Shown here piece after piece: positions 3,834 through 47,774 of a stretch of 64,000 nucleotides of DNA. The notes beneath the pieces were generated by a model. The model was not told the DNA's origin, did not search any database, and saw only the letters and a list, made by a program, of their open reading frames with translations. Position 1 is the stretch's first letter; every line of letters starts with the position of its first letter. The translations under genes were made by a program, and so were the position numbers. The stretch is taken from the NCBI GenBank assembly GCA_003999685.1, contig CP021220.1:4154001-4218000 (forward strand). Reading direction: 5' to 3'. The stretch comes from Taiwanofungus camphoratus (lineage: Eukaryota; Basidiomycota; Agaricomycetes; Polyporales; Taiwanofungaceae).

Positions 3834-3840
3834 ATTCGCG

Positions 3841-13553: not shown

Positions 13554-13555
13554 TT

Positions 13556-18971: not shown

Positions 18972-18982
18972 GAGGGGGGTAA

Positions 18983-21070: not shown

Positions 21071-21506
21071 ACCTCGCCCACCTCGCTCTAACAAACCTCT
21101 AAGCCTTACGCCCTTTAGCTAACTCTAGCTAAAAGGACTTCGCAGCAGTCTCGTACCCTCTGCCGCTTAGTAGAAATTATAGTCCATTGGCTTATTGTTC
21201 CCTAACTCTATACAGCCTACGAAGTCAGCTCGCGCGATTTAGCTAAAACTTCGAAGGACTTCACAGAATCTCGAAGAACTTCGCGTACTTCGGAGGGCCT
21301 CGCAAGGCCTTAGGGATAGTATAGCACTTAGGAACAAGATCCTGTTGTGCAGGACCCTTGACCCCTTACTCCCCTACTTACAAAAACAAGACATACAGGT
21401 TTCCCGGTATCATACAGGTTGTAGCTCCTACCCTCACACCCTCACAGTTATCACACTACCCCACAGCCACGTTGTGGAGCACTCCCTAGGTACCAGGGTC
21501 GTATCA
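21071..21506 (+). repeat. 5' LTR of element C, right-hand part only
   Basis: Matches the last part of 44570-46333 nearly base for base. About 1.3 kb of its left side is missing where it meets the inverted A-type LTR. Confidence 0.9.
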
Positions 21507-21510
21507 TTTC

Positions 21511-21527
21511 TGGAGCCCACCGCGAGG
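21511..21527 (+). other. Putative tRNA-type primer-binding site of element C
   Basis: TGGAGCCCACCGCGAGG, four bases after the LTR end, starts with TGG as expected for pairing with a tRNA CCA end. No complementary stretch was found in the element's own LTR, in contrast to elements A and B. The tRNA is not identified. Confidence 0.5.
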
Positions 21528-24500
21528 GGGAGCAGTCAAGATTTCATTGCCTTCAGATTATCCTACGTCTAATCAGTCCTCTCCGAGAAACAGCGATCAG
21601 TTACTATCCGAGTTCTTTCAGGTCGGCTATCGTTACTATACTCAAGCAGGCCTTCCACGAAGCACCTCTTCGCGAACACCTACGACTATCCCCTCCGATA
21701 TCATTTCTACACTCGAATCTTCCGAATCGACCCCCGACTTTGAGGCTCTTTTCAAAGGGTCTCTAAACACGCTTACCACGTCCGAAGACTCACCAATTGA
21801 GGACTTCGAACCTCAGTCCACATCCCCTGAGCTTCCTAACACCTCCGAAGAAAGCGGTCCTTCTTCAGCGTCTGACCCTATCTTAGTCCATTTACCAGAA
21901 TCCCCTCAGCTATCCTCTACGCTCCCATCAGCTTCGCATTCCCCTCCGATTCCTTCTATTACACTTTCCGACGCTTCTATGACCCAATCTTCTTCAGCTA
22001 GCATCAACTCAGCTTCGAACCCATCTCTGACCGCACCCCTTTTAGCTAATCCCCTAAATCCTATTTCTGTGTCAACCATGAATGCACCTCCACTCATGCC
22101 ACCTCGAGGGAATCGTACATCCCCCACCTTCGATCCTGACCAGCCTAGGACCATCCAAAGGTATTTTCAGGACTTAGAGTCACTTTTTGTCCGCTGCCAG
22201 ATAGCGGATGAGGCGACAAAGAAACACTGGACTACTCGCTACCCTCCTATCGATGTTTCGGACCTATGGGAGTCCCTCCCTGAGTGTTCCGATGTCACGA
22301 AGACCTACGAAGACTTCAAGAAGGAGATTAGAAGCCTCTACCCAGGCACAGAGGACGATAGAATGTGGTCTATGTCCGACTTGGATCAGTTGATAGGGGA
22401 ACGTGCTAGAATTGGAATCAACAATGCGGCAGACTTAGGAAGCTTCTATCGTGAGTTTTACGCCATCACGAAGTATCTAATTTCGAAGAATAGGTTGTCT
22501 ACCATCGAGCAAAGCCGTGCTTTCACGAGGGCCTTCCAGCCTTCGCTATGGGCTCGCGTGTCTACTAGGTTACAGCTAAAGTTCCCTGATCACTTACCCG
22601 ATGATCCCTACACCTTGGACCAGCTACATAGCGCAGTGAAGTTCGTACTCCTCGGTACTTCTACGACTCTTACCTCTGCTACGACTGTAACTGCTTCGAC
22701 CACTGCTGCGCCCGTAGGGGGCTCATCGCTAAAGATAGAGGATCTACAGACGTTCGCGGAGATCCTCACGAAGTCTGTAACCAGTGCGCTAGCTCCTGTT
22801 CTTGCGAACCAGCGACCCCCTCGATTGGACAGCTCACGCGGCGAGCACACTCATGTGGAAGGCCAGTACTGTCACTATTGCGGGGACTTGGACTGCTGCA
22901 CTAGGTGCTGCAAGCACATTGAGCAAGACATCAAGGATGGCAAGTGCAAGCGCAACCCAGATGGAAAGATAGTACTGCCAAATGGAAATTTCGTACCCAG
23001 AATGATCCCAGGACGTACGATTCGCGATAGGCTTTACGAATATCATCGACAAAATGGCACAAATTCCTCCCCACAGCTCCTATTCGAAATCGACAATCGC
23101 CTAAATGTGCCCGCATTCTCACTATCTGCCGAGGATCGTATAGCCGCTTTAGAACACGAGATTTACCAACTTTGGAGACGTCGCGAAGTCTTCGATGGTG
23201 TGGAAGTACCCCAGCGCAGAAGGCAGGGTGCTCCTAACGCGCAGTCTGATCCTAGAAACCCACCCATAGCCAACGCACCTCCGATAGGACGCGCTCAGCA
23301 TCCAGTAGTGGATCCCCCTGCTAACCAAGATGCCCCAGTGGCGGAGGCGCAGAACCAGACCCCTCCTACCATTCTAAGGCGATCCAATTATCCTTCTAAT
23401 TCAGCGCCTTCACCTCCGAAGCCTGCGAATGCATCCGACCCACCCATGAACTCATTGGAGCATGCCTCGTCTACACCTAACGTACCAGCCCAACCAGCAT
23501 CACAGGCAGCCATTCCACCGCCCGCTCCACCAGTACATCCTTTCGCTAATGCTCGAGATGCTACTTACGCACCTCCGAATCTTCGAAATTTCGCAGCAGC
23601 TCCGAAGCCTACAGCAGACAAAGGCAAGGACTTGGCCTATAAGACTGTTACCGGGGGGTTCACCCTGGTAATGCTGCAGAAGCTTGGAGCGGTGTGCAGC
23701 GAAGGGTTGAAGAGGAGCAACAGTGACGACAAGTCACGATCCTCAGTAGTCTTCAACTACAAGCCCTATGTAGTCGCGATAGTCTTTACGGGCTTCTTGA
23801 GGTGCAAGAAGATGTGTGAAGACTAGCGTGTATTGGTACTAATGCGTAGTACACTTTAGAAAAGGATGAACGAAGAGAATACGACTAGGGGAGCCTCCAA
23901 CAGTGGGACCCCCCTTTATACTGCCACCGCCAACCCCCAGGTATACTAGCAGCCCCCCAGAGACCGCATAAGGTGAGAGGAGTCAGCGGCCCGAAAGTAC
24001 ATAACTACCATGGCGTAAGCGGGGACGGTCGGCCCGTCAGTCAATCTGGGTAAGTAAGGTGTGGAAGGGATGCCGCGCGTCCATGGTGTGACAAACAAAG
24101 GGAAAGAAAAAACGAACACGTCTCTAGTCCTACTCGACAGTAACAAAGACGATCACACCGGTTCATCAGGAGAAACTTACAGAGGAAATATTCGCGCAAT
24201 CTATGAGAACACCAGTGGTTACACTAACGCCCAAGGAGCTACTATCTATATCCCCGGATGTTCGTGTGCGATATCGCGAAGCTATCACCCCTAAACGTGT
24301 GCCTATGGATCCTAAGGCTACTTATATGGCTCAAATTACGGAACTCTCAGATGACCTTGCTTCTAAAACGATGCTAGCAACCTCCGAACTATTGTGCCAT
24401 GGTGAACCCCTTGTCCCTGGTTCGACCATCATTCCAGACCCCTACGAAACGTACTTACGACACGTACCCGGAAAGGAAGAACCCTCCGAAATCATAGTAG

Positions 24501-27320
24501 CCCGCGACTCGAACTCTATCCGTTCTATTAAAGCCCTAATCGACAACAAAGAGCGAATTGAATGCATCGTGGACCCTGGTTCACAAGTGGTTGCGATGTC
24601 AGAGCAAGTCTGTCATACCTTAGGGCTAATCTACGACCCTTTTGTGCAGCTAAATATGCAGTCTGCTAATGGCAGTATTGACCGTTCCTTAGGACTGGTT
24701 CGAAATGTCTCGTTCCAAGTAGGCGACATTGTGTTGTACCTACAGATGCACGTCATACGCAATCCCTCCTACGATATCCTTCTAGGCCGTCCCTTCGATG
24801 TGATAACCGAGAGTGTGGTTAAGAACTTCGGAAACGAGGAGCAGACCATCACGATCGTATGCCCGAACACGAGCAAAGTCGCGACCATCCCTACGATGCC
24901 TCGAGGACGTCAAAAGTTCTTACCAGCCCATCATCATAGTTGCCCCCACGTGAACTCTTCGAATCATTTGCGATCGGGTTTTTAGATTTCGAGGATTTGA
25001 GAAATCAAGGAGAGGTCGCCCTGGTCATTGAGTATGAATCCGATACCCCTAAAATTGTGTCGTTCGCTGCTGTAAATGCAGCAGATAACAATTCTGTTCC
25101 TGCGCTCTATCTATCAGTCTCTAACTCTGTGTCTAGCTATCTGCAGTCTCTCTATTTTAGCGAAACTTCGAAAGTCTCGGAAGGTCCTGCTGATCATACT
25201 AGGTGGCTATCTGGCTTTCTAGCAGCAGCAACACCGCCCGAGGCTCCCTCCCTTTCACACGATAATCCGAATTCTCTCCCTATGCTTTCGCTTTCCGCCT
25301 CTAGAAACATATCCTCTATTCCCATTCCAGGTCCCAGGAACGCTACGAAGGTCACGAAGTCAGCCCAAAGACCTTCCCTTGCTCCTAATCCGATGGTATC
25401 CCTTCCTAAGTTGTCAGATTCTTCCCCTATTCCTACATTTGCAGCATCGAAAAAGAAGTACAAGCCTGTAGCGCTGAAGACTCGCCCTATTCTGGGAGCT
25501 TTGGATGAATGATTCCGAATCATTCGCAAAATTAAAGGCGACCCTTTAGCGACGATGCCTACCCTATCACCGACTCCACCACCTTTCGAACCTACTTCGT
25601 GATATACGCAAGAACAGCACGATCTCATGGACAAGCTACACAGCGGAGACTTCCTACAACCAGCAGAGAGGGACCTCCTACATCACTTTATGACCCTACA
25701 TGCTGATGCGTTCGCTTGAAATGACTCCGAAAGGGGGTGCTTCAAGCCGGAGTACTTCCCTCCCATCGACTTTCCGGTAGTACCGCACACGCCATGGGTA
25801 CAAAAGAACATTCCTATCCCACCCGGAATCTACAACGAAGTGTGCGCAATCATCAAAAAGAAGATCGCAGCTGGGGTCTACGAACCTTCGAATTCTTCCT
25901 ATCGTTCACGATGGTTTTGTGTGGTGAAGAAAGATGGAAAGTCCCTACGCCTTGTACATAGTCTGGAACCCCTAAACGCTGTCACGATTCAACACTCAGG
26001 CGTTCCCCCGACTCCCGAACACCTCGCAGAACAGTTCGGAGGACGACCTTGTGGTGCTATGTTGGATCTATATGTAGGCTATGATGAACGCTTGATAGCG
26101 GAGACTTCGCGCGATCTTACAACATTTCAAACACCTTTCGGAGCTATGAGATTGGTCACTCTACCTATGGGGTGGACCAACTCGGTCCCTATCTTCCACA
26201 ATGATGTTACGCACATCCTACAGCCCGAAATTCCTCACCTAACGGTTCCCTATATCGACGATGTTCCGGTCAAAGGCCCTGAAAGTTCGTACGATCTCGT
26301 ACCTATTTCGGAGAATCCAGGCATTCGAAAGTTTGTTTGGGAACATTTTACGAACCTCAATAGGATAGTCACATGCATGCGCTATGCAGGAGGTACCTTT
26401 TCTGGAGTTAAAAGCATTCTAATTGCCCGCGAAATCACTGTTGTAGGGCATCAGTGTACTCCAGAAGGTCGCCTACCGGACGAGTCTCGTGTTGCAGCCA
26501 TACGCAACTGGGGACCTTGTGCGACCCTATCTGACGTTCGAGCCTTTTTAGGAACCATTGGAGTGGTCCGTATCTTCATCCGAAACTTCGCGCATCGTGC
26601 AGATGCCTTAGTACGCCTAACACGAAAGGCAGTACCCTTTGAATTTGGTCCAGCACAAATCGCAGCGCAGGAGGACCTTAAGGATGCTTTGCTGTCCTCT
26701 CCAGCTCTCCGATCCATTAACTATTTGTCAGGTGCGCCCGTGATCTTAGCGGTTGACACCTCCTATATTGCAGTTGACTATCACCTTTGCCAATGCGATG
26801 AGGACAACCCTCAAGTTCGATTCTACAATCGTTTCGGATCCATCACCCTAAATGATCACGAGCGGAGGTTCTCGCAACCGAAGTTAGAGATCTACGGATT
26901 GTTTCGAGCACTTCGCATACTACAAATCTACCTAATCGGAGTTAGGAACCTTATAGTGGAAGTTGACGCACGCTATATCAAAGGGATGTTGCAAAATCCG
27001 GACATCGCACCCAGCGCGAGTATAAATCGCTGGATCGTATCGATTCTAACATTCCATTTCACCCTAGTACATGTACCAGGTACGATGCATGGGCCAGACG
27101 GACTATCAAGACGAACCCTCCAGCCAGGAGATCAAGAAGAGAGCAGCGAAGAAGACTTCGAAGACTGGATAGACAAAATGCACTCATTTCTACATCACAT
27201 CCAAGCCCCCCCTTCCCATTCTATACCATCAATTTCTACCCTATTCCCTTACGAATTTGCCTCTAACATTCCTATCACAACCCCCACACCTCCGATAGCT
27301 CCAACCTTCGCCTCCGAGTT

Positions 27321-27359
27321 GGCTGAGGACAGCCAAGGTTTCAATAGGGAGGAGGAGAG
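27321..27359 (+). repeat. Internal copy of the 3' polypurine region of element C
   Basis: This 39-bp stretch in pol, between RNase H and integrase, matches 44531-44569 without gaps at about 33 of 39 positions. Both contain CTGAGGACAG, TTTCAATAG and a GAGGAGG run, and the second copy lies directly before the 3' LTR. Confidence 0.75.
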
Positions 27360-27638
27360 CTACGATAGCGTCCCAAGATCCGAAATGGCCAAGGAAGCTG
27401 ACGCAAGACTTGACTTAGTAGCAAAATTCCTACGAAGCCTCGCGAGACCTGCCAACCTATCGGATTCAGAATACGAAGGTTTCGTAAAATACTGTCTTCT
27501 ATTCTTCCTCGATGAGGACATACTATGGTGCAAAGATCCACAAGGAGCTCACAAACTAGTTGTAAAGCAGGCAGATCGTCTACGAATCCTCCGAGAATGT
27601 CACGATGCAGTCGCGCATCGAGGAATACACGCTACGAA

Positions 27639-28181
27639 TGATACAAGCTGGTATCAACGACCGGAAAGCCTCGAACGTGAGGACCTGGCTACTAGAGATA
27701 GTAGTGAGGCTTTATGGACACTGCGTATGTCCTCCTGGGCGAAGTCGATGGAGTCGAGCGAGTACTCAGGTACGAAGCGAGAGGTCGCAAGATACGAGTA
27801 TAAGATTGCTAGTGGTAACTAGCTACTTGGTAACCAGATCGAACTTAAGGTCCGACCTACAAAGTACAGGGCCTTATATACGTATTCTACTCTGCGCACG
27901 GACCATGGCACGTGGTCTAAGAATCAGCATGAGTAAGCGTAAGTAAGGCGATATGAGTCATTGGGCCGTATTAGCAATCAGTAAGCGTAAGACAGAATGT
28001 GTAAGTGGGGCCCGATATGAGTCAGAGTCCATGAGTAACCGGGGCCCGTACCGTAAGCAGCGATGAGTCAAGACGCTGCGTGAAGAAGCTGGGCCTACCC
28101 GAGGCCCGTCCTAGAAGCGAAAGGTCATGGGACCGATCCGAGGTCCGACCGATAAGATATGCGATGAAAGAAATTGTATCA
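27639..28181 (-). repeat. 3' LTR of element B
   Basis: 543 bp, TGATACAAGC to AATTGTATCA on the plus strand, followed by TTACCCCCCTACTT, the purine tract read on the minus strand. Confidence 0.9.
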
Positions 28182-28440
28182 TTACCCCCCTACTTATGAT
28201 TGAACGCCTGGTCAATCAACTAAACTCCAATGGGGGAACACGTCGAGTTTCTCCGAGCCGAACTTTGACGACCATCGACGAACTTGACGAACTTCTGAGG
28301 ATGAACTTGAAAAACTTTCCTGGAAGTGACGAGCAGGTGTTTCACCGCAACCGATAAGGGATGACCCTTGAACCCATAGGGGATGACCCCTCCAACCGTG
28401 AGCATCCTTCCAGCTCGAACTTTACAGTTTTACGACATGT

Positions 28441-28540
28441 CGGTCGTACAGTGTAGTTTAACGACGTGCACGGTCGTACGGTGTAGTTTAACGACGTGCA
28501 CGGTCGTACGGTGTAGTTTAACGACGTGCACGGTCGTACC
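28441..28540. repeat. 30-bp tandem repeat in element B
   Basis: Three nearly perfect copies of a 30-base unit starting CGGTCGTACGGTGTAGTTTA and a fourth partial copy, between the extra ORF and the 3' LTR. Partial copies of the core AGTTTAACGAC flank both sides. Confidence 0.9.
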
Positions 28541-28814
28541 CTCGCAGTTTAACGACATGCAGGAACCACTCTGGATGATACGGCGGTACCGGGTCATTGG
28601 CGAATGCGTAATTGACGGCGGTGCATTCGCGCGTAAGGTGCCCAGGCGATGGGCGACTACAGCGGAGACATTTGTAGTCAGGGCACGTCCTGTGCGAGTG
28701 ACGAGTGCTACCGCAGAGATAGCATGGACCGTAACGAGTGAACGAGGATGAAGGACCGTTTGACTGAGACATGCGAGCGAGGAGTGGGGTGAAAATGCGA
28801 CTGATTTCACTCAT
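28518..28814 (-). other. Extra zinc-knuckle ORF of element B
   Basis: A 98-codon frame after the chromodomain with two Cys/His knuckles, CYLCGSTRHSHRTC and CLRCSRPSPGHLTREC (the second with a wider spacing). It occupies the place that the extra ORF has in the A family. Whether it is complete cannot be told in a broken element. Confidence 0.5.
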
Positions 28815-31800
28815 TGTAAGTTCTTGCGCTGCTTATATGCGTTTAGCAGCTCGTCCGCAGTACCGGCTAAGTTCTCTTCCGGTTCCCATGAGTCATCGGC
28901 GGATGAGTAACCTTTCCACCTGACTCGATATTCTCGGCGATTCCTTCGGCGATTCTCACGATGTCCGACCAGAGCTTCGACTTCGTAGTTATCTTCGCCG
29001 CTGATAAGCTCCAGCGGTGGTTCCGTGTAGTTGGGACCGTGGGTGTCCGTCTCGGTGTATGGCGAGAGAAGCGCGGCGTGGAAAACGGGGTGCACTCGCC
29101 ATGTCGTCGGGAGTTTCAGCTTGTAAGACACTGGTCCTAAAACGTCCGTGATTTCGAAGGGTCCCTCGCGTTTGGGAGCCAACTTCCTCGTCGGGTATGG
29201 CAGCTTTAGATTCCGTGAGTCTAGCCATACCTTTTGTCCTTTGCGGAAACCCGTTCCTTTGGGTTTCACGCGTCTTGCTAACACCGTCTGTGCTAGCTCC
29301 ATTGCTGAGTGTGCGTCTTCCCGAATCTTCTGCAAGTTCCGCAGTCGATACGCGGCGCCCGGTGTGTCCGATCCGGGGTGTACAACGGGAATCCCTCGAG
29401 GTTCGTAGCCCATCATGACCTTGAAGGGTGATGCCTTAATTGTCGAATGCTCACGCGAGTTGTGAGCGAACTGTGCTGAGCCCAGCAGCGACGACCAATT
29501 GTCCGGGTTGTTGCTCGTGAAACATCGCAGATAGATCTCCAGCTCCTGGTTGACTCATTCCGTTTCTCCATCCGTTTGAGGGTGGAACACTGTACTCATG
29601 GCCGACTTGACTCCGGTCATACGGCAGAGCTCCTGGAATACCTTTGATGCGAATTGTGGTCCTCGATCGCTAATGATCTTGTCCGGAAGACCAAACCACT
29701 TGTACACCTCACGATATAATGCCTCGGCTGTTCCTGATGCGTCAATCGTTTTGTTGCATGGAATGAAAATTACCCCCTTTGTAAGGTCGTGGTCCACAAC
29801 GACCAGAATTGAATCGTAGCCCTCCAAAGTCGGTAAATCCGTAATGAAATCGCAGCAGAAAGTACTGAACGGAGTGGCGTGCTGCGCGGATTTGATCGGG
29901 AGTAGGGCCGGTCGGGTGGGTGTGTGTTAACTTTCATTTGCTGGCAAGTGCCGCAGCCTTTGACTTATCGTGTGATAAAGTCAGCCATTCCAGGCCACCA
30001 GTAGTCTCGTCGAATAGACGAGAGAGTCTTCTGAATTCCAGGGTGGCCGGCGGAGGGGAGGTCGTGATAATTCGAGACCGTTTGTCATCGCAAATCCTCA
30101 TCCAGGGGAATATACACCCGATTATCATAGAGGAGGTCTCCATCCCGAATTGTCCAGTGGTCGTTTGAGCCGTTTCGTGCGTTACGCATCCCTTCCGTAT
30201 ACACCGAGTCGTTTACACATGCTTCCGCGATGGAAGCCCTTAGACTCGTGTCGATTGCCGCTGCCCATACCTTGTCTGGTAGGACGGTTACATCCTGGTT
30301 GTCTGATGAACCGTCGTCGTGGTCGGGGCGTCGGGAGAGTGCGTCGCTTTGCACCATTTGCGTGCCCGGGACATGAACTAACCTGTAATCGAATTCGGAC
30401 AAGCGAAGAGCCCATCGTGCTTGCCTTCGATTCAGGTTCCGTGCCATCTTCCAGTATGTCAGATTCTTGTGGTCGCTATAAATCGTGACTGGATACGGGC
30501 TTCCGATGAGAAGGTGACTCCATTTGTTGAGTCCTCTCATGACGCCCATGAGTTCTCGGTCATAGACGTCATAATTTCATTCTGCTGGCGTCATGCTCTG
30601 GGAAATATAACCGCACGGATGCCAATCGCCGTTGTTGTCCTTTTGCCTGAGGACGGCACCCGTGGCGAACTTTGATGCATCCGTTTCCAACGCGAACGGC
30701 TTCTCTGGGTCAGGCATCTGCAACACCGGTTGTTCCAGGAAAGCTTTCTTCAGTGCCTCGAAAGCTTCCTGCTGTTCATCGTCCCAGTGCCATTTGACGT
30801 CCTTTCGCGTAAGCGAGACCAGAGGCTGGGCCAGATGCGAGAAGCAGTGTATAAACCGACGGTAGAAGTTCCCAAATCCGATGAATGACCTAACCTCCCT
30901 GAGGTTCTTAGGTATCGGCCAGTCCTTGATGCCGGCTACCTTGACTGGGTCCATGGCGAGTTGTCCGGGTCTAATGATCATGCCTAAGAATTCGACTTCT
31001 TGCACGTCGAATTTGCATTTCTCCGGTTTGAGATACAGGTTGGTATCTCGAAGTCTTTCGATAACTCGCCGTGTTCGCTTCTTGTGCTCCTCGGGGTCTG
31101 TCAAGTAGATAAGGATGTCGTCCATATAGATTGCCAACCATCCTTCCTTGAGCATGTCTGCGAAAACCGTGTTCATCATCCGTTGGAACGTTGCCGGTGA
31201 GTTGCACATCTCAAAGAACATTACCAGGGGTTCGTAGAATGAGGGAGGTCCTTCTCCAGCTGCTGGAACACTGAAAGCCGCTTTCCACTTGTCACCTTCC
31301 TTGATGCGAAGGTTGTTGTATCCTTGACGAAGGTCCATCTTTGTGAAGATTGTGGCATTATTGAGGCGTTCCAGAAGCTCTGTTACGAGGGGAAGAGGGT
31401 ATCTGTCTTTGATCGTTCCCTCGTTGAGTTCCCTATAGTCCTGGCAAGGTCGGTATCCGCCGTCTTTCTTGTCCACGAAGAAGAACGGGCTTGCGAGTGG
31501 CGATTTGAACGGTCGGATGTACCCCTTCTCTATATTCTCTTCGAGGAACTTGTCCAGTTCCGCTCGTTGATCCCGGTTAAGAGAATATGTTGTCTGCTTG
31601 AAGTCCTTGAAATCTGGCTTGAGATTTATCTCGTGGTCGAACTCCGAATGTCGGGGAAGTCTCGCTGCTTTGGCTTTGTCGAACACTGGGAGGAGGTTGT
31701 GGAGGTACTCGGGGACGAGTTCCGTGACCGGTTTCTCCTCTTTCTTGGCGTGTTCTTCAATAGCGAGTTCCGTGGATGTGGTGAGTCGACCGATGTCGTG

Positions 31801-34188
31801 CTTGACCTGCCAGATAAGACCGTTTTCGAGACGACGATAGGTTCCGTCGAGAGGGTACTTTCCCTCTGTAAGAGGTGCGTCTCGATACGCTGGGTACGAG
31901 TCTCGTCCATATGTTGTGATCCGATCGTCTCCCTCGATGAACGCTATAACCAGTTCATCGTCATCGATCGTTTCCATCGCTTGATCCAGTGTGATACCAT
32001 TGACCGATTCTTCTACCGGGGGTGCGACTAGGATGTCGCGGCGTGCCGTCTGCCTAGACATGTCTGTCGTCGGCAGGACAGGAGACATGGTGTCGATCAC
32101 CTCGAAGTCTCCTTCGTCCTCTACCTCCTCAATGGTGGGCTGCCATTGTTGCTTGAGGTGTTTGTCTCGTTCAGCAAGGAATGCCGCTACTTGTGGACAA
32201 GGGGGTGCTGACCAGTCTACCTTATAATCTAGCACGGGATCCAGGGCTTCTTCCTGCTCTCGTTCGGCTAGTTTCTTCAGCTCCAGTCGCACTACTCGTT
32301 GCGCGATGATCCCCTTCTTCCACTCTCGAGATTCCTGTAAGGTCATGCGGTGCTTTAGTTCCACACGACCCCCCTTCCAGTCAATACTGGGGTTCTCGAG
32401 TTTGAGCCATGTATGTCCGAAGATGACGTCTTCGTTCCCTATACTGGCCACGTATGCTTTGACAAACCGGGGCTCGTTCCCAATTTTGTACGATAGCAAG
32501 GCTCGTCGGTTAATGAGCGCTTGCTTGTTGGCAGTGCCGTCCACGTTGAACACCGGTATTGGGTGTGGTAGCACTTCTGTCCGTAGCTTGTGTTCCTTAA
32601 CAAATCGTGGATGCACGAATATTCCCGATGCGCCACTATCGATGAAGGCACGGGCTTCGACGGCTTTTCGTCCCACAGTAATCGGAATGTGCAAAGCTCT
32701 GTCATTCCGGACTACAAGTACAACACGAGACAGTGAAATGGATACGGGCAGTGGTTGTGTCGGCTCACCCTGCCCCTTTAAAAATCCTCCGTTCCTAACT
32801 CCTCGAACATCGCCCTCTTCTCATCCGATGAGAGCGTCTTGATGTATGAGCGGAAATCCATGGGGGATCGCGCCTCGGGTTCCTTCGAGGTATTCCTTTG
32901 GCCTGTCTTGGCCGTCTTCTTCGGACACTTGCGCACCGCGTGTCCTCCCTTGTGGCAGTAGAAACATAGACGATTGTCCATGTGGTACTTCCTTTCCTTC
33001 TCGCTAAGGTTGCATCCGTCTTCCCACTTCTTGGTGAACGGTGTGGGACGCGGGGTAACGAGTGCGTCCACTTCCATGGGTTCACCGTAGTTGACTTCAG
33101 TGGTGGCCGAGAGGGTTTGGTCGATCCCTCTGTAGACGGCGTCGAGGTGGAGAACGTCAGCGTACCATTTCTCCATGGAGTTGGGTCATTCGGTATTGGT
33201 GCGGCCTGCGAGTGTCGTGTAGATCTGGCGGTCCAGACCTTTGATGAAGATCGCCCTCAATGTGGGGTAATCGTTCTCGGTGCGTTGGCCTTGGAGGCCC
33301 ACGATGGCGTCCTTTAACTTGGCCTTCTCTGCCAGGAGTCGGAACCTCTCCACGTACATCTTTGTACTGACCCTGGTCTTCTTGTTTAGTTGCTTGGCCG
33401 GCAACTCCATTAGCACCTGGTGAGCCCTCTGGACTCCTTCGTGCTCGGGGAACGCAAGTCGCAAGCTCGCCTTGAATACGTCCCAGCTAGCGTAGGGAGC
33501 ATGCCCTCCCGCGGCCCATTCGTAAAACATATCGCGCCAGATACGTGCGTCCTGCCCTCCTTTCATGAGAGCGACTGTGTAAGCGATCTTTGCATCATCG
33601 CTTAACCCTTGATTGTTGGTGGCAGTGAGGTAGTGCTCCACCCACTGGAGGAAACGCTCCAGATCTTCTCCTTGCCCGGTGAACGGCTCCGGTGCAGGAA
33701 TGTCGAGCTTAAGGGGTCGACTCCCCTGTTGCTGTTGCGCCGAAAGGTGCGCTATGAGCGCTTCAAGCTCCGCCCTGGTCATCGTTGCGATAGTAGCCAT
33801 CGTGGTAGGGGTGGTGGGTGTTACGGGTGTGAAAGGAAGTGACGGAAACGTGGGAGTAGTCGGGGTGGCTATCAACGGTGTCGAAGGTATCGATGCGGGA
33901 AAGAAACCAGCTGGGTCTCTTCCGTCTGGCGGAGGGTTACGTCGGAAATAGGAGGCTAATTTCTCCTGTGCTCGTCGATTCGAAATTGTCCCTGCCCACG
34001 CGAGTGGGGAGTTCGGGTAGATCAGATCGAGGTTCTGGTCAACGAAAGTCCAACGAAGACGATCGTACAGAAGCAGCGCATCGTTTACTTGAGTCGGCAA
34101 TCCCCAAGCGGTGGGGTCGACTGTCTTGATGGTAGACGTGGTGTCTAACGGTTAGCCCTACTAGATAAGACTAGGGGCGACTTAGCGA

Positions 34189-34200
34189 TAAGTTCGATCT
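34189..34200 (-). other. Primer-binding site of element B, self-priming type
   Basis: On the minus strand AGATCGAACTTA, two bases after the 5' LTR. Its reverse complement TAAGTTCGATCT occurs inside the element's own LTR (27836-27847 on the plus strand read as the complement), the same arrangement as in A1. Confidence 0.65.
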
Positions 34201-34202
34201 TT

Positions 34203-34756
34203 TGATACAAGCTGGTATCAACGACCGGAAAGCCTCGAACGTGAGGACCTGGCTACTAGAGATAGTAGTGAGGCTTTATGGACACTGCGTATGTCCTCCT
34301 GGGCGAAGTCGATGAAGTCGAGCGAGTACTCAGGTACAAAGCGAGAGGTTGCAAGATACGAGTATAAGATTGCTAGTGGTAACCAGCTACTTGGTAACCA
34401 GATTGAACTTAAGGTCCGACCTACAAAGTACAGGGCCTTATATACGTATTCTACTCTGCGCACGGACCATGGCACGTGGTCTAAGAATCAGCATGAGTAA
34501 GCGTAAGTAAGGCGATATGAGTCATTGGGCCGTATTAGCAATCAGTAAGCGTAAGACGGAATGTGTAAGTGGGGCCCGATATGAGTCAGAGTCCATGAGT
34601 AACCGAGGCCCGTCCGGGGCCCGTACCGTAAGCAGCGATGAGTCAAGGCGCTGCGTGAAGAAGCTGGGCCTACCCGAGGCCCGTCCTAGAAGCGAAAGGT
34701 CATGGGACCGATCCGAGGTCCGACCGATAAGATATGCGATGAAAGAAATTGTATCA
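34203..34756 (-). repeat. 5' LTR of element B
   Basis: 554 bp, about 98 percent identical to 27639-28181, with an 11-bp length difference. Confidence 0.9.
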
Positions 34757-36451
34757 ACGAAGGTGCTGATTTCGGAGCGGTTTTGGTGGCCCTACCATCA
34801 TATTGACATTGCCTGGTATGTTCGAAGCTGCCACCTATGCCAGATTCGCCAAGTGCAGCAGATCCTAATCCCTCCTACGGTCGCTACGCCCGCTCCGATC
34901 TTTGCAAAGGTTCATATAGATACCATGCATATGCCCCCTTCTAACGGATTTAGGTACTTGGTGCAAGGCCGGTGTTCTCTAACCCAGTACCCCGAATTTC
35001 GGATGCTTCGCAAGGAGACGGCTAAAGCTTTGGCAGAATGGCTCTTCAAAGACTTTGTTTGTAGGTGGGGCGCGCTATCGGAGATAGTCACGGACAATGG
35101 CGCTCCCTTTGTAAAAGCTACGAACTACATAGCGAAGAAGTACCAGCTACGACACATCCGAATTAGCGGATACAATTCGTGTGCCAACGGGCTGGTGGAG
35201 AGGCCTCACTTCGATGTTAGGCAGGCTCTATTCAAGGCCGTGGATGGCGAAGAGTCTAAATGGTCTCAGGCAACGTACTCAGTCTTCTGGTCCGAAAGGA
35301 TCACAACTCGAAAGCGCATGGGATGTTCGCCCTATTTTGCGGTCACTGGCACCCACCCTGTTATCCCTTTGGACGTCGTAGAGGCCACCTATATTCTTCC
35401 TCCTCCGTCTTCTATGCTATCCACGACCGATCTTATCGCACGTCGAGCTATCGCATTGCAAAAACGGGTGACTCAGGTAGCGGAACTACATTTGAAGGTC
35501 TACGAAGCGCGAAGACAAGCTGCTCTGCGATTCAAAGAAAAGCATAAGCACTCCATCCACGATTTCAACTTCGAAAAGGGCGATTTAGTACTAATTCGCA
35601 ACACACAGATAGAAAAGTCCCTAAATCGGAAGATGCGACCTCGCTACCTCGGCCCAGTACTCGTGGTATCTAGGAACAAAGGTGGTGCTTATATCCTATG
35701 CGAATTGGATGGTTCGGTACTCGACAGGCCTATGGCAGCCTTCCGAGTCATCCCCTACTTAGCGCGAAAAGCTCTCGAACTTCCTACTGAACTCTTGGAC
35801 GTGTCGACGGAGCGACTTCGCGAATTAGAGCTGACTACCACCCAAGGCAATGACGAAGAACTAGGATCATATTCCTACTCTCCTAAGTCCGGCTCTAGTC
35901 CATCCGAAGCTCACTAAAGAATCAGAGGAACAATCGACGATACCCCGACTTTAGCTAAGATTACGCTACGTCCATTTTACTTTTCGCTTACCCTTTGGTC
36001 ATGTTTTACTTTCCCCAACAAGCCCCCACTCAGTTTTGACAGCTATGAAGTCCCGAATGTCTACGAATTTTTACTTACAACATCTCCGACTTTTTACTAT
36101 AGTGATTCAACTCACGAAGTCGCGATATCGTTCTAAAGGCTCCTAAAACGCCAAGCGGAGCGAAGATTGCGCGAGGGGCCTTATGCCCTTCAAGGCCATG
36201 ATGATTTACTGAGCCTAAATGAGCGCATTTTATCCCCCTAAGTCTTCTAATTCATCTCTGTGTTGTTTGGTTACTTCACGCACTTAGGAACCTTTTCACA
36301 AGGACAACGTTTGCGTCCGCTATATTCAGACTATTGTACACATATTGAAGAAGGTCCCTAGCAAAGGGACGCGCAACGAGAGAGAATACAGCACATTGGT
36401 GCGATGGATACGGAATGGGCGAGACGACGAACTACGAGCCCCCCCCACCTT

Positions 36452-39400
36452 CTAAACCTCGGCCTCGGCATCTTCCTCATCCTGCTCGGACTCACCGGAG
36501 GGACCAGGATCAGTAGAGGAGGCGGCGATGCGACGGCGAGGAAGAGGGAGAGAGCTCAAGTCGAGCGGCGCAGGCGTACGACCGGTTAGGGCGGTTTCGG
36601 CACGATAGAGCCCCGAGATGTAGTCTTCGAGACGCATCGCGCGACTCTCGGCCATCGCGCGGTCATACCAGAGGCCTTCGACAACGGCTTGATGCGCAGG
36701 GGTGAGGCCATCCAAGTATTCGGCGCCGTTAAGGGCCAGCGAGGCCTCGAGCGACATCGTAGGCGCAGGGGTCGACTTCGCCTTCTTGGACTCGCGGGCG
36801 CGAGGCGGGGACACCTGAGGAGGTTGGCCTGCAGCTAGGGGACGTCCTAACATCAGCAATGACGCGATAACGAGGGCACGAGAAGCCCTACTGCGCTTCG
36901 AAACGCGCACTCCGCGCTCCTTACCGTCTACAGAGAATCCGCCCCAATAACACCCCTGCGACTCTCGAAGGCACTTACCGCACTTCACAGCACCCACGGG
37001 GAGTTCGCACTCGAAGTCGGTGGTGTAGGTGCTGCAGCGATCGCACTGGAAAGCAATAATAAGTCGCGAACAGCTGTTACGGGGGGTCTACGCCCATAGG
37101 TGACTACCGTGACGGGGGGTCGTTGAGTAGTCAGGCGTGAAGTGTAAACGAGGAGTCAGCCTGGCTGACAACGAGTACACGTCTAAGTCTTCAACCGCTA
37201 GCCCAACGGTCTCGAGAGAGTTGCGGGCTAAGTCACAGCCTAAATCCTAGCGTAGTCACAAGGATTTAGATGGTCTAAGGCGACCTGTTGAATAGACGAA
37301 GGTATAGGGGCCTAAGCCCAGTTGTAAAGTACAAATGGTAATGACGGCACCAAAGTACACAGTGTAACTAAGGAGGACAAGATTGGGGTGCTCCGCAGTG
37401 AGCCAACCCCTTAAGTACTATGGTGGGCTTAGGGCAGCCAGCCCTCGCTCCCACGGGTACCAGCACTTAAGCGTCCATAAGTCAGAGGCCCGAGTGGTCC
37501 CTCCTGAGGAACAGTCCATAACTAAGCAGGTGACGGTCAGCCCGTCAGGAATAATGGTGATGATTGTAAGTGTACACGACCCGCCAGTCCGGTATAGTGA
37601 AGAGAAACGAAAATGTATGTTCGCACCATTACCGCCTTGTAACATTACCCCCCTCTCAAGGACTCGTCGCCCCGACGATCGAACCCTCAGCGTCTGACCC
37701 CTCTTGTTCTGATTTGACCCTGGCTCGTGGTCGGAGGGTGTCGGACTGGTCAGAAAGGATATCGTCATCGCTGGTATGCATGCAGTCATGACTCCAATGT
37801 CCCATTTGTCGGCATCGTATGCAGAAGGGGGAGTTCCCTCTGCTGGCCGAGCTAGGGGCACCACCAGTGATAGAGTTGGACGGGCCATCACTGGCAGAAG
37901 GGGCCTGTGTTCTGGCCTGATGTCGTGGTGGTATCAGGTTGTCTATGACGCCCATTAGAGGGGAGCGCATGAGGACGGCGAGCAGGTTGCGGGCTGCTCG
38001 GCTTGCATCTATGTGGAGAGTGGCCAACTGCCACATTGTCGGGTTGTTGCCATTTGGCCCAAGGCCTGTTTGCCTTCGTTTGAGTGTGGCCAAGCTGCCA
38101 GCCTCTCGCGCGACAATGACCAGTGTCCGGTAAATGTTCGTTAACTCCCACAGGTCCGGCCAAGCCAACAGCCGGGTGTCTATTTCTGGCCATAGATCGG
38201 CATCCACCAGGGCCCAGGCAGTGCGATGTGCAAGCCTCCACTGATTGTACGGATCGTCGGACGCTGCCAATGGGGGCACTGTCTCCTGAATGTTTCGGTA
38301 TGGGTGTGCGCGTGTGTGCCTTGCTCATACTCGGGGTGCAAGGTCTCGTACCCTTGCTGCGCTGTGGTTCAAGTAGACGGATAGCTGTCGGGGGTCTGTA
38401 TGAGTGGACATCGTAGTGCCGTGCCTCTGCTGAATGTCGGCTGTATGCAGCTCTGCAGATCCGGGTGTAGCGGGCGTTGACCTGGGGCCTTGTAGGCAAC
38501 CTGTTGACCTTCTTATATTCTTTCAGAAGGTCGGGCGAGTTCATTAAGTCCGCCTCAGACTGCCATGTATTAGCAGAGTTCGGCCATCCAACCCATTTGA
38601 TCAGGAACTGCCACTTCCCACGCTGGGCACGATGCCCGTGAATGGCTTCGACTTCGTATTCTTCATCGCCATCGACTAATCTGGGGGCGGCCTTGTGAAG
38701 TTCGAACCATGTTCCTTGGTTTCCCTGTATGGTGTCAACAGCGATGCATGGAATACTGGATGTATCTTCCATGCCCTTGATAGCTGAAGCTTGTACGTTA
38801 GCGGTCCTAGGACTTCAGCTATCTTGAGTGGTCCTACTCGCTTTGGGGAAAACTTCCTCGGGGTCTTTAGGTGGAGGTTAGTTGCTTCTAGCCAAACCTG
38901 CATCCCCTTCTCAAATGGCTGCCATGTGGTTCGAGCCCTTTCTGCCATCAGCTGCGCAGCTAGATCCTGTGCTGCCAGTGCTTCCTTTCTGAACTCTCCG
39001 ATGGCTAAGAGTCGGTCCTTGATTGATGGGTACCTTTCCGATGCCTTTGGTGATCCGATTGCCTTTGGATCATATCCCATAATCAGCTTGAATGGTGACT
39101 CCCTTCTTCCAGCATGCGGCACCTGATTGTGTGCGAATTCAAATTCCGGGATAAACTTTGCCCAGTTGTGAGGATTGTTGGCACACAGGATCCTCCATGC
39201 AGCTTCGAGTTCCTGATTGACACGCTCAGTGCTTCCATCAGACTGCGGATGGTAGGCAGTGCTCATGGCTGCTTTGACACCTGTCAGCTTGCACCACTCC
39301 CGGAACACTGTTGCTGTGAACTGTGGGCCTCGGTCCGATATGATTCTGTCGGGTAGCCCATATCGCCGGTAAACGTTCTGATGGAGTGCCTCGGCTGTTC

Positions 39401-42400
39401 CTACTGCATCAATGGTCTTGTTGCAAGGAACCAGGACTATCCCTTTGGACAGTTCTCGGTCCACAACTACCATTAGTGCGTCAGATCCACGTGATTCAGG
39501 TAGGTCTGTGATGAAGTCGACTGAGATGTGTGAGAACGGCCTGGAGTTCGGTTCCGTTGGGATGGGTTGCATTGGTGGTCGTGTTGGATGCGTGTTGACC
39601 TTATTCTCCTGGCATTTGGCGCAGCCTTTCACGTAGTTTTCGATAAACGTGGTCATGCCATTCCAAAACCAGTCCCTTCTGGCGATGGCAAACGTTCCCT
39701 GTGCTCCTGGATGGGCCATAGCTGGGGTGTCATGGCAAAGTCGAATAACTTCTCTGCGCAAGTCGTCACTAGGGGGTACGTAGATTCGATTTTTGTACAG
39801 AATCAATCCATCCTGCACATCCCAATCGGCCAATGTTGTGTGCGCAAATCCAGTGCCCTTGAATGGTGGTACTTTCCCCCGTTTTAAAGCGTCAATTGTC
39901 TCGATGACCATGCTGTCACGACTTCGGTGTTGCCGGATGCGCTCGATGAGGTCAACATTAACTGCCTTTGCAAACAGTGTTTCTGGTAAGAGGACAATGT
40001 CCTCATTGTCCCTCTCACCCCCTGGATGTCCTGGTCTATGTGATAGGGCGTCCGCCACTACGAGTCGTTTACCCTTTCGATTCTCCAGTAGTAAGTCGAA
40101 CTGCGATAGCAGCAGTTGCCATCATGCCTGGCGTCGTGTTAGCTGTTGGGCTTCTCTGAAGTATGTCAGGTTCTTGTGGTCCATTATAACTGTGACCGGG
40201 TGCTTTGCGCCCTCCAGGTGGTGACGCCATTCCTCAAGTGCTCGTACGATTGCCAGTAGTTCTCTATCATAGATCTGATAGTTCCGTTCTGCTTCCTTCA
40301 GCGATTTTGAAAGGAATGCCACCGGGTGAAGTTTTCCATCAGGGCCCTCCTGTTGCAGTACTGCACCTGTTGCAACCAGTGAGGCATCGGCCTCGATTAC
40401 AAACGGTTTCTCAGGGTCGGGCATGGTGAGTACTGGGGCCTCACAGAAACGGCGTTTAAGTGCCTCAAAGGCTGCCTGGCACTTGTTCGACCAGTTCCAA
40501 GCTACCCCCTTCTTCTTAAGTGCATTCAGGGGGTGGGCGATGTCCGAGAATCCGCGTATAAACCATCGATAGTAATTGGCGAGGCCCAGGAATCGTTCCA
40601 CGTCCTTGACTTTGGTCGGTATGGGCCATTCATCGATGCCCCGCAGCTTGCCAGTGTCCATATGGATGTGACCTGGTGTGATGGTCATTCCCAGAAACTC
40701 AACTTCTTGTACATCGAAGGCACACTTTTCCAGTTTCATGAAGAGGTCCATCTCCTGCAAGCGTTGCAGTACCCGGCGTGTCCGTTCTCGGTGGATGGTA
40801 GCATCATCGGAGTAGATCAGGATGTCGTCCATGTAAATGGCTAACCATCCTTCCACGAGCATGTCTTGAAACCCATCATTCATAAGCCGCTGGAAGGTGG
40901 CCAGGGCATTGCACATGCCAAAGAACATTACTGTTGGTTCAACTAACTTCTTGGTTCCGTGGTGATTCACCATGAACGCTCCCTTCCACTGGTCGCCCTC
41001 CCTGATGCGTACATTGTTGTAGCCATTTCGGAGGTCCAGCTTCGTGAATATGGTTGCCTTTTGCAGGTTGTCGATGAGCTCTCCAATGAGTGGAAGTGGG
41101 TACGCATCTTTTACCGTGCTGTTGTTGAGGTATCGGTAATCCTGACAGGGCCTGAGTGTACCATCCTTTTTTGCCACAAAGAATGCTGGGGAGGCCATGG
41201 GTGACTTCGAGTCCCGTAGATATCCTTTCGCCAGGTTCTCGTCAAGGAACTTATTCATCTCCGCTTGTTCAGCCAGAGATAATGCAATTATCCCACACTT
41301 CCTAGGTACAAAGTTAGGCTTTGTCTCCACAGCGTGGTCTCATGGTCTTGAATCAGGGAATCGAGCAGCGGCTGCCTTTTCAAAGCGGTCCCGGTAGTCG
41401 AGCAAGTACTCAGGCACCAGGTCTTCAATCTGTGGCCCCTCCTCAGGGGGTGTCAGTGGTGCGCTTGTCTGCCTGGCGGTGGCTATGAACCGTTTTGAGC
41501 CCTTTACATGGCTGTTCCGATCTAATGATGGTTGAGACTTCTTGGGTGGCTGCAGCAGGCCCATTTCATTGAATAGGGGTTCCGGTTGATCATTGAACAT
41601 GCCTAAGACCCCTTCTCCCCTTGTATAAGCACATAGGATGATTTCTAGCTCGTCATCATCCTCGTGTGCAGAGGCTCGGCACAATGGGATGCCATCCGTG
41701 GTAGGCTGGTCCATGATCCAAGCATAGTACCCCTGCCATTCCTTAATCCTGTCCGGGTCAACCGTGAGGGTCCCTTTTGGCCAATCGATCTGCGAGTTGA
41801 CTTGAATCAACCAAAGGTTGCCCAGCACTACTTCGAGGTCCCCGATGTCCGATACATAGAAGTTTGTGGGTATGTCATACCCTTCAAGCCGTATGCTCCC
41901 TTCAACTCGATGGGTAATCGGTCCACCCCTGTTGGGGGTCCCATCAATGGTCGTACTTCGTACCTTCCAAGGTAGCGGTTGTGTGGGCAGTCTCCATCGT
42001 TCCACAAGGTCAGGGTGTATGAGATTGGCATCGGCTCCACTATCGATTAGTGGTCTCACAGCGATGGCCTTTTTCCCTGCGACAACATAACCCTCTACAT
42101 ACAGAGTGGTTCCTTTCCGATATCCTGTGATTGTGGCCCCCATTGAGATGGTCGGGTCCTTACTGGTCTTTGGCTTGTCCAAGTTTCTTTGCGCAGGTTT
42201 CCCTGTGCCTTCAGCCATTGATTCTCCTCCTGGGGCATCAGTGAAGTGTTTAAAATGAGGGAACCGTTTCTGTTCAATGGACTCTATGGTGGACGTTCCT
42301 AAGGATTCCTCCGTTTCTTCACTGCTCCAGTAGTCTGCTGGTGGGACCGGATATGGCTGGGTTTCCTCCAAGGCGAAGTCATCCGAGTTTGACGAGTGGT

Positions 42401-44402
42401 GCAGTTCCAGTTCCCTGTCTCTCCTGGCATCATTGGAAGGTTGTGGAAGTCTGGGTTCGCTTTTGTGTGGATTATCGTGTTCATTGTCAGCTTCCCCTAG
42501 GGCCACATCTCTGTGTCCTTCCTTTCTGATTTTCCTGGGCTCTGGGCATGCCTTGACCAAGTGTCCTGGCTTCCTGCATCGGTAGCAGCTCCTCTTCTTC
42601 CAGTGATGAGGTGTCAGAGCTGTATTGGGGTAGTTGTGTTGGTGTCCTTGCCTGGAGCCTGTGCCTCTCTGCCCCTGTTCGAGGGCTTCAGTGGAGGGCT
42701 GAGAAAGTCCGAGGTCGTTGTCGCTTGGGGTAAGCGGTCCATCCCAGGGGATCCCTAGGGCTGCTTTTTCTGTTGTTTCTGGTCGGGGTATGTGGTCTTC
42801 CTCCCTTCCTTCCTTCAATTTTCTTCGCCAGGTGATAGCTCTTCGGACTATCACCAGGAACTTCTCCATCTTTCCGGTGTTTCCTACCCCTTAGCTCAAC
42901 ACTGATGGTGCGCACTTGTAGTCAAGTGATCCTCCTGCCAGTCCCTTCCAATAGAGACACTGGTCTTACCCAATCCTTCCTATGAGGACGTTGGTGAGGG
43001 TCCAATTTCTTCCGCTTGTTCGCGTTCTAATTCGCTATCCTGAGATAGAGTTTGTAGGGAATCTTGTCCTAATGTTACGGGGGGTCTACGCCCATAGGTG
43101 ACTACCGTGACGGGGGGTCGTTGAGTAGTCAGGCGTGAAGTGTAAACGAGGAGTCAGCCTGGCTGACGACGAGTACACGTCTAAGTCTTCAACCGCTAGC
43201 CCAACGGTCTCGAGAGAGTTGCGGGCTAAGTCACAGCCTAAATCCTAGCGTAGTCACAAGGATTTAGATGGTCTAAGGCGACCTGTTGAATAGACGAAGG
43301 TATAGGGGCCTAAGCCCAGTTGTAAAGTACAAATGGTAACGACGGCACCAAAGTACACAGTGTAACTAAGGAGGACAAGATTGGGGTGCTCCGCAGTGAG
43401 CCAACCCCTTAAGTACTATGGTGGGCTTAGGGCAGCCAGCCCTCACTCCCACAGGTACCAGCACTTAAGCGTCCATAAGTCAGAGGCCCGAGTGGTCCCT
43501 CCTGAGGAACAGTCCATAACTAAGCAGGTGACGGTCAGCCCGTCAGGAATAATGGTGATGATTGTAAGTGTACACGACCCGCCAGTCCGGTATAGTGAAG
43601 AGAAACGAAAATGTATGTTCGCACCATTACCGCCTTGTAACAACAGCCACGAAAAAGAAGCGTACTCACCTTCGCATGAGTTCGCCTATGCTCCGCCGCC
43701 TTCGCCATGTTAGCCAGGGCTTCGGGCGTCGGAGGAGCCTTCGCCTTCGCAGCGTCCTTTCCCTGAGTAGGAGGGACCCCTACGAAGACACCCGAACTCG
43801 TGGACGAGGCGAGTTCGCCGACTTGGCCGCTAGAAATGGAGGCCATGATTGAGCTGGCCTGGAAAGCCGCGCGAGTAGAAGCTGCTGCCTTGGCCCGAGC
43901 TGAGGGACGACGAGTGCACGATGAGGTACGACTAGGGGCCGGCGAGGGAGCAGAAGACAAAGCCGCAAGTTGGGCAGCGCGTTCAAGCGCAGCGCGCTCG
44001 GCCGCCTCCACACGAAGTCGTTCGGTCGCACGGGCGAGTTCGCGCTGTGCGTCTCGCTCTTGAAGCATAGCGGCGAACTGAGGAAAGCCGGTGCGGGCCC
44101 ACGAGATCCACGACGAGTCCGCGAGAGGGAGGATCGCCGTCAAACCTTCGACGATGGCGGCCTCTAAGGTAGGATCGGCAGGAGCGTTCGAAGCCTGGGA
44201 CAGGACCCGCCAGTTACCCTATAACACAGTGAAGACAATGTAGTGAGTGATCGAGGAGGATACGTACCACACGACGTCCTAAGTTCCTCGCCCACCGCAA
44301 GTAATCTTCGACCTCCGCTACACCCTCCGGACGAGAATCGAGGAGTGCCAGGACATCGCTGTGAGCTAGACCAACACCATCAGAGTCCATATCGTCGAAC
44401 AT
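36452..44402 (-). CDS. Antisense gene carried by element C: cysteine-cluster protein of unknown function, 3 exons
   Basis: Exons 44402-44268, 44218-43670 and 37045-36452 keep phase (all phase 0) and give 425 residues. Intron 1 is 49 nt. Intron 2 was 51 nt before element A2 entered it. Residues 1-45 are acidic ([20 protein letters not shown]); 90-125 are Ala/Glu/Arg-rich and probably coiled coil; 229-260 hold six cysteines spaced C-x2-C-x8-C-x8-C-x2-C-x6-C, close to the fungal Zn2Cys6 pattern but with 8 instead of 6 residues in the first loop; the tail is Pro/Ser-rich and acidic. The gene lies between the integrase and the 3' LTR of C, on the opposite strand. It could be a captured host gene or an accessory ORF of the family. 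A further small intron inside the last exon is possible. Confidence 0.6.
37075..37644 (-). repeat. 3' LTR of element A2
   Basis: 570 bp; followed on the plus strand by TTACCCCCCTCTC, the purine tract in minus orientation. Confidence 0.95.
43073..43642 (-). repeat. 5' LTR of element A2
   Basis: 570 bp, four differences from 37075-37644; next to AATCTTGTCCT (primer-binding site, minus strand). Confidence 0.95.
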
Positions 44403-44569
44403 GATGGGGAAGGGAAAGGCAAAAGGGGAGGAGGAGAAAAAGATAAGAGACACCCACGATTAGCTTCTATCAGGATATCGCCCGCTTCGCAGATCGGACG
44501 CGATAGGCTACAAGTTCCCACGGTCGTGCACACTGACTGAGGACAGTCAGGATTTCAATAGTGAGGAGG

Positions 44570-46333
44570 TGATGAGTCCCGTAGCCTCCCGGGCTCCGAA
44601 TCGCGATTTTAGGAGCTTTCTAATCCCCCAACCGACCACTCTAAGACTCTCCCACAGCCTACGACAGGAGGGATAGGTCCCTATAATATTCCTAACGCCC
44701 CCTCTCCTTCCTAAACCCTCCTAACACCCTACGAAGTCTTGCGAAGTCACACGAGGTGCTACGAGATTTCGAATGCTAGACGCGAAGTCCCTAACTCCTG
44801 CTAAGTCCACTATCGGACACTGCCGGTCCTCCCATACTGTTCCATTGGATCTAGGTTCTATCTACTACATCACTCATCCCGGGCTTAGCTAAGAAGTCTT
44901 AGCTAAGTCTCTCCTAGCTCTTGTGATTGCAGCTACCTCCGATAGGCTCTGAAACGGTCCGAAGTTCCGGAAGTTGGACTTAGAAAGCCTTGTGCACCCC
45001 CATGGGTCTTGATCCTATGCCATAAGGTCATCCTAGGGCGTATCCATATGGCCCTCCACCCAGTTAGGACACCTCCTACCCCGATTAGGCCAAGTCCCGC
45101 TGCTAAGAACTTTGTGCGCTCTTAGCCCGCTAAGATAGGTGATCACGGCGCATGGCTGCTCTCGGATAGTCATCCCACCCTCGTGAATGAAGTTGGTCAC
45201 CTTTCTACCGTACGTAGTTCCCCTGTTTCAGTTCCTAATTAGTTCCTATCCTCCTTGTGTTCACTTTGGAGTCCATGCGCTTTAGTACACATTTCGGACT
45301 CATAAGGATCACTTCGCGCAAGATTAGTTCACCTCACGCTCCCCTATTTAGTCAGAGGTAGTTTACTATGTACGAGAGACCCCTCAGTGCACGCTTCTCT
45401 CTTTGGAATACAAGTTCCCCTGTAGCTCTGATCTCAGGAAAGTGTCGCGAGTACAACCTTAGGAACGGTCCTAAGGCCCCTAAGTCTCCACCCCAGCTCC
45501 GTTTCAGTATCTTTGAACTACGTCTACGCTCGCGATATATCTACGAACTACATCTACGCTTTCCGAACTACGCACTACGATCTACGAAGTCGCCATGACT
45601 TCGTGCCCTTCAGTACCTCTTATAGCACCTATCCGGTGGGCCTCCGCCTTAGTTATACCCTTAGGCTCACGTTGCGTCATCCCTACGTCCTACGAATAAC
45701 CCTACGACTCCCCCATAGCCTTCATTACAGGCTATAGTACATCTCTCTACGCCCTCGAACTCTCCGTCCCACACCTCGAAGTCATCAGACACTTCAGAGC
45801 TTCCAGCAACCTCATTCCCCCATTCCTATTCCAGGTATTAGCTCTCCGAACCATCTGACCTCTCCTACAAGTCTCCTACGCTAGCCAAACCTCGCCCACC
45901 TCGCTCTAACAAACCTCTAAGCCTTACGCCCTTTAGCTAACTCTAGCTAAAAGGACTTCGCAGCAGTCTCGTACCCTCTGCCGCTTAGTAGAAATTATAG
46001 TCCATTGGCTTATTGTTCCCTAACTCTATACAGCCTACGAAGTCAGCTCGCGCGATTTAGCTAAAACTTCGAAGGACTTCGCAGAATCTCGAAGAACTTC
46101 GCGTACTTCGGAGGGCCTCGCAAGGCCTTAGGGATAGTATAGCACTTAGGAACAAGATCCTGTTGTGCAGGACCCTTGACCCCTTACTCTCCTACTTACA
46201 AAAACAAGACATACAGGTTTTCCGGTATCATACAGGTTGTAGCTCCTACCCTCACACCCTCACAGTTATCACACTACCCCACAGCCACGTTGCGGAGCAC
46301 TCCCTAGATACCAGGGTCCCCTAGGTCGTATCA
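44570..46333 (+). repeat. 3' LTR of element C, complete
   Basis: About 1764 bp. The left end is placed at TGATGAGTCC directly after the purine run GTGAGGAGG; the right end is GTCGTATCA, so the ends read TGAT..ATCA. The last 440 bp match 21071-21506. The region is rich in ACGAAGT-type words and has no coding frame of note. Confidence 0.75.
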
Positions 46334-47713: not shown

Positions 47714-47774
47714 TTGGACAACTAAGCTAGGGCGTCTAATGGAGATGATGGTGGTACTGGTTCAAGAAGCGGTC

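Follow-up and report, generated by a model that had tools for sequence, protein, structure and literature searches.

A window of 64,000 nt from the basidiomycete Taiwanofungus camphoratus (assembly GCA_003999685.1, contig CP021220.1, positions 4,154,001 to 4,218,000, forward strand; all coordinates below are those of the window) contains a large Ty3/Gypsy retrotransposon, here referred to as element C (21071..46333, plus strand), that seems to carry a three-exon gene on its opposite strand. This gene lies between the end of the C integrase open reading frame (ORF) at 35917 and the 3′ long terminal repeat (LTR) of the element, antisense to gag-pol. Judging from the sequence and from known antisense systems, our preferred but tentative interpretation, to which we assign a probability of roughly 0.45, is that it may be a spliced accessory gene of element C whose product would be a nuclear regulator of the element's own LTR.

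The gene had been proposed in a first-pass annotation, and its location, open frame, GT-AG intron borders and 425-aa product were confirmed. It runs on the minus strand from an ATG at 44402 to a stop at 36452, and its 425 codons are distributed over exon 1 (44268..44402, 45 codons, beginning with the ATG), exon 2 (43670..44218, 183 codons) and exon 3 (36452..37045, 197 codons plus the stop), with phase 0 at every junction. Exon 2 encodes a stretch rich in Ala, Glu and Arg, and exon 3 opens with a six-cysteine cluster (36950..37045, minus strand; C-x2-C-x8-C-x8-C-x2-C-x6-C). Intron 1 (44219..44267, minus strand) has 49 nt (GTACGT...TATAG) and a guanine plus cytosine (GC) fraction of 0.43. Intron 2 as now present (37046..43669, minus strand) is about 6.6 kb long because a second Ty3/Gypsy element, element E (37075..43642, minus strand), inserted in it. 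The earlier description of the span 36452–44402 as a gene thus held for the exons and both ends, but 6,568 of the 7,951 bases are element E, which it did not mention, and not part of the antisense gene. Element E is complete-looking, with 570-bp LTRs (37075–37644 and 43073–43642) that differ at four sites and a target duplication, ACAGC, at 37070–37074 and 43643–43647, and its pol frame is broken by stops. Before this insertion intron 2 had 51 nt (GTGAGT...TTCCAG), in which the target duplication was present once. Upstream of the ATG, the leader at 44403..44569 (minus strand) is a promoter candidate, its 45 bases nearest the ATG being mostly pyrimidines on the gene strand. Pyrimidine-rich leaders are common in fungal promoters.

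The length of the spliced frame and its codon usage were both compared with shuffled sequence. With the empty-site flanks joined and up to two phase-0 introns of 45–65 nt allowed, the longest ORF obtained by splicing had 442 codons on the strand of the gene (the 425 with intron 2 retained) but 76 on the opposite strand, whereas the maximum in 300 composition-preserving local shuffles was 258 codons and none of the 300 reached 442. Taken singly the exons were only mildly unusual, their lengths being reached in 14 of 1000 shuffles of the exon 3 region and in 66 of 1000 of the exon 2 region. Codon usage was learnt from ORFs of the other elements and compared over six frames with 500 shuffles. Of the six frames, that of the antisense gene came out best in exon 2, where 1/500 shuffles reached its score and 16/500 its margin, and likewise in exon 3 (1/500 and 9/500). 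The joint evidence for a gene beyond chance is strong, while that from single pieces is not. We also considered the scarcity of stops relative to pol, which has three, as a sign of selection, and dropped it; on a rough estimate, such freedom from stops would be frequent in a gene of 1.3 kb.

Both introns are likely, though not proven, to be real. In low GC and in high T, intron 2 lay outside the range of all 348 length-matched exon windows, and intron 1 was similar in composition. Intron 1 also joins exon 1 in frame, and the unspliced reading soon meets a stop. From the presence of introns it had been argued that the gene either has its own promoter or was captured from the host. Capture as an implication is not supported as stated: introns in antisense orientation could outlast many rounds of retrotransposition, because their splice sites would not be read in the sense genomic RNA.

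To assess membership of the gene in element C, a 5-mer score was derived solely from the 437-bp remnant of the C 5′ LTR, the flanks of the element serving as background as well as comparison. This score is a less biased version of earlier motif counts, for which the motifs had been chosen by eye after reading the region. Between the gene and the known 3′ LTR (44618–45892), 12 of 16 windows exceeded the maximum of 402 flank windows, so that the sequence is LTR-like up to the known LTR. In the interval from integrase to gene (35900–36349), all five windows lay above the 95th percentile of the flanks. Maxima of the elements that were not part of the background were −0.057 for element A (12983–19553), −0.169 for element D and −0.016 for element E. 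The antisense gene is flanked by C-like DNA on both sides.

Several observations nevertheless weigh against an accessory gene of C. Intron 2 is likely rather than proven because, despite its intron-like composition, it is free of stops in frame and a multiple of three in length, which makes read-through possible. Its codon score also lies within the ordinary range, with 168 of 348 windows at or below it. At least two donor-acceptor pairs occur in 17.6% of shuffles, and within the cysteine cluster there is a third candidate intron. In the short exon 1, codon usage ranked the gene frame second, without support. To the left of the gene only one of the five 5-mer windows passed the flank maximum, the flanks being background; the target duplication of C is gone; and DNA binding by the product has no profile backing. 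Exon GC (0.61–0.63, against 0.48–0.52 in C gag-pol) would fit a foreign origin, and the gene occurs in one copy, with no relatives found in the collections scanned. Composition, introns and the lack of a further copy within the window would also fit a scenario in which a host gene with introns entered this C lineage once, in antisense orientation, and has no standing part in the family. Such a one-off capture appears unlikely to us: the non-coding DNA is C-like on both sides, an antisense gene would be expected to keep its introns anyway, and composition points to no donor because the window's own host ORFs range in GC from 0.45 to 0.70. As to copies and relatives, tblastn of the spliced protein within the window returned only its own exons (next match, E value 1.6), and searches among viral contigs, plasmids and prokaryote genome contigs recovered no relative of exon 3 (viral contigs and plasmids) or of the C reverse transcriptase (RT; viral and prokaryote contigs), these collections being uninformative. 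The pol of element A had no relative in viral contigs either, and because this well-formed element was also unmatched there, the lack of relatives says nothing either way.

The locus could instead be a chimera, in which an ordinary host gene lies between a C that has lost its 3′ part and a C LTR of separate origin, without ever having been carried by one element. The left end of C is indeed rearranged and its target duplication lost, and a scan for a tract of at least eight purines directly before a TG found none, but the intervals from integrase to gene and from gene to LTR are both C-like, and the C LTR remnants are 98.8% identical, as in one element; we judge this explanation decidedly improbable. 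A further alternative is that what counts is the antisense RNA itself, through double-stranded RNA that silences the element, rather than a protein. Such a role is deemed possible for antisense ORFs in a passage of one study (PMC7264820), and antisense transposon long non-coding RNAs are reported, in the part of the source cited, from Blumeria (PMC10648671). An RNA role needs no 425-codon open frame with codon bias, however, and seems highly improbable here. To a chance frame in GC-rich DNA poor in stops we give almost no weight: the GC fraction of about 0.62 and the mild lengths of the single exons would suit it, but not the joint spliced length or the codon preference for the frame in two exons.

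The protein encoded by the spliced frame resembles no characterized family closely. Its sole match in Pfam was SusD (15.3 bits, cutoff 27), and nothing in the PDB was better than an E value of 0.77. The SusD matches (in Pfam 15–17 bits, with E values of 0.004–0.01 and a cutoff of 27 bits; in the PDB an E value of 0.77) were taken as chance because this is a bacterial outer-membrane family, the scores are below the cutoff and the matches fall in a helix-rich stretch. By eye, the product of exon 2 contains a helical, charged, coiled-coil-like stretch, and the cysteines are followed by basic clusters and an acidic tail. Exon 3 folded alone and without an alignment gave a mean predicted local distance difference test score (pLDDT) of 45.1, a confidence too low for use.

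The cysteine cluster had been described as close to, but not the same as, the Zn2Cys6 domain (PF00172) of fungal regulators, and this description stood. As in Zn2Cys6, the six cysteines form two C-x2-C...C halves. The spacing of the second half is the same as in GAL4. The first half of Zn2Cys6 follows C-x2-C-x6-C, whereas the present cluster has C-x2-C-x8-C, with a first loop of eight residues and not six, in which there is no lysine or arginine. The profile search of the cluster that had been suggested as a check gave no zinc-cluster match in Pfam even at an E value of 10: the cluster alone matched nothing in Pfam or the PDB up to this value, and the PF00172 profile matched neither the spliced protein nor the cluster up to the same value. 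Because profile and spacing both failed, the protein is not classed as Zn2Cys6. Zinc binding by the cluster is putative. There was likewise no match in Pfam to bZIP, TRP28 (PF04195) or SMC.

If the antisense gene is an accessory gene of C, transcription would begin either within the pyrimidine-rich leader or within the 3′ LTR, and the mRNA would be spliced twice and then translated. The genomic RNA that serves reverse transcription would run the other way, the splice sites would go unread in it, and the introns would be kept. The protein, with its coiled-coil-like stretch, putative six-cysteine zinc module, basic stretch and acidic tail, might then enter the nucleus and act on transcription of C's own LTR, in a manner comparable to that of the antisense proteins which human T-cell leukaemia viruses (HTLVs), as retroviruses, encode. 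In the present copy the system would be dead, with pol broken and element E filling intron 2.

Partial counterparts to such an arrangement exist. Antisense extra ORFs in plant Ty3/Gypsy elements, on which the first-pass annotation drew, are indeed known, and a passage of PMC7264820 adds the Boty element of Botrytis to them. The plant aORF-3R genes (Grande gene23, RIRE2 and Retand) lie, like the present gene, antisense between pol and the 3′ LTR according to the passages cited (PMC7264820, PMC11963269). In these sources the Grande antisense product is described as nuclear with its own promoter (PMC7264820), and the TRP28 domain of the Retand antisense product as probably DNA-binding (PMC11963269). 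The present gene differs in having no TRP28 or SMC match, a six-cysteine cluster and probable introns; in the passages searched of the Retand paper the word 'intron' occurs 0 times (PMC11963269). In fungi, brtn of the Boty-like elements of Botrytis cinerea is likewise an antisense extra gene of a Ty3/Gypsy element, with the likeness drawn here by description only, from part of one source (PMC7264820).

In its proposed working the gene resembles HBZ and APH of the HTLVs, a likeness that concerns mechanism and not descent. HBZ has a bZIP domain, and the present protein has no bZIP match in Pfam. As described in the part of the source cited, the HTLV antisense proteins are made from spliced antisense mRNAs that start in the 3′ LTR, and these proteins repress viral sense transcription, HBZ and APH being antisense, spliced, nuclear regulators near the 3′ LTR (PMC3185765); the present gene is likened to them in its position and its presumed splicing. 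A broader proposition, that a large fungal Ty3/Gypsy lineage maintains a spliced antisense gene with a divergent zinc cluster that controls its own LTR, as a counterpart to HBZ, strikes us as somewhat unlikely. Among the matches listed and the titles of open-licence papers, no antisense gene was found in a basidiomycete element, which is weak evidence of its absence from print. Novelty would lie in finding introns, a six-cysteine module and this fungal lineage together. Brtn of Botrytis cinerea is reportedly the subject of a paper by Zhao et al. from 2011, cited in PMC8365987. Antisense retrotransposon genes are known and their role is unsolved; a spliced antisense gene with a putative zinc module in a fungal element would offer a genetically tractable case, and its antisense orientation would suggest a simple criterion by which to tell the captured genes that are able to retain introns within a retrotransposon.

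Element C itself consists of a remnant 5′ LTR, gag, protease, RT, RNase H, integrase, the antisense gene and the 3′ LTR, with elements D and E nested in it. All parts other than the antisense gene and the nested elements are on the plus strand. The 5′ LTR remnant (21071..21506) is followed by an ORF in gag position (21490..23826; 778 aa from stop to stop, no Pfam match), an aspartyl protease ORF (24128..24985), the RT/RNase H region (24940..27638), in which three in-frame stops precede the RT core, and the remainder of the integrase (34763..35917). This order of domains fits Ty3/Gypsy, with Pfam matches for protease, RNase H and the H2C2 domain of integrase. The RT was recognized by a YIDD motif seen by eye and by its position; RVT_1 gave no match to the C RT ORF at an E value of 0.01. 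Element D (27639..34756, minus strand), a further Ty3/Gypsy element flanked by the duplication ACGAA, splits the zinc-binding domain of the C integrase. Because its 5′ end is truncated, pol carries three stops and element D sits within the integrase, this copy of C is, on its sequence, dead.

The stretches of the two C LTRs are 98.84% identical over 431 bp, the left part of the 5′ LTR being lost. Of the 3′ LTR (proposed extent 44570..46333), the part at 45889–46333 is established by its match to the 5′ remnant, and the leftward extension to about 44570 is proposed. There it would start with TGATGAG after seven purines (44563–44569, by eye), giving it a length of 1,764 bp, and the antisense start would then lie 168 bp beyond its border. 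A scan ahead of the 3′ LTR for at least eight purines directly before TG found none, and TGATAC does not occur in the region. On the left, C is cut at 21070 by two opposite LTR pieces of the A/E family with no matching duplication, and the target duplication of C was lost because the left flank was replaced by this rearranged LTR. The pieces, 106 bp and 570 bp long, lie head to head at 20395–21070 and cut the C 5′ LTR, a junction that looks like a rearrangement. Minus-strand ORFs flanking C at 19525–20451 and 46269–47721 had no Pfam match at usable scores; they could be the ends of one older element that C split.

Element A belongs to the same family as element E, with 96.4% identity over 6,572 aligned positions. 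It contains a single ORF of 1,667 aa from stop to stop with matches to protease, RT, RNase H, integrase and chromodomain, and is flanked by the duplication CCGAT. Because its LTRs are identical (571/571) and both the duplication and the long ORF are kept, A appears to be a very recent insertion. Within the LTR pairs of elements A, C, D and E all 16 differences were transitions (five in C, seven in D, four in E and none in A), and by reading 10 of the 16 were in CpG context, which suggests methylation-linked decay. Within element D, a 30-bp tandem repeat is present in three overlapping copies (28441–28539).

Elsewhere in the window, five successive cysteine-rich units (C-x2-C-x4-H-x4-C) with the look of zinc knuckles are encoded at 56652–57518 on the plus strand. 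The first 4 kb (1–4000) had GC fractions of 0.67 and 0.62 and long overlapping ORFs on both strands, three of which were tried and had no Pfam match. A minus-strand ORF at 8446–9162 matched GDP-fucose protein O-fucosyltransferase (E value 1.8e-9) and is probably a host gene.

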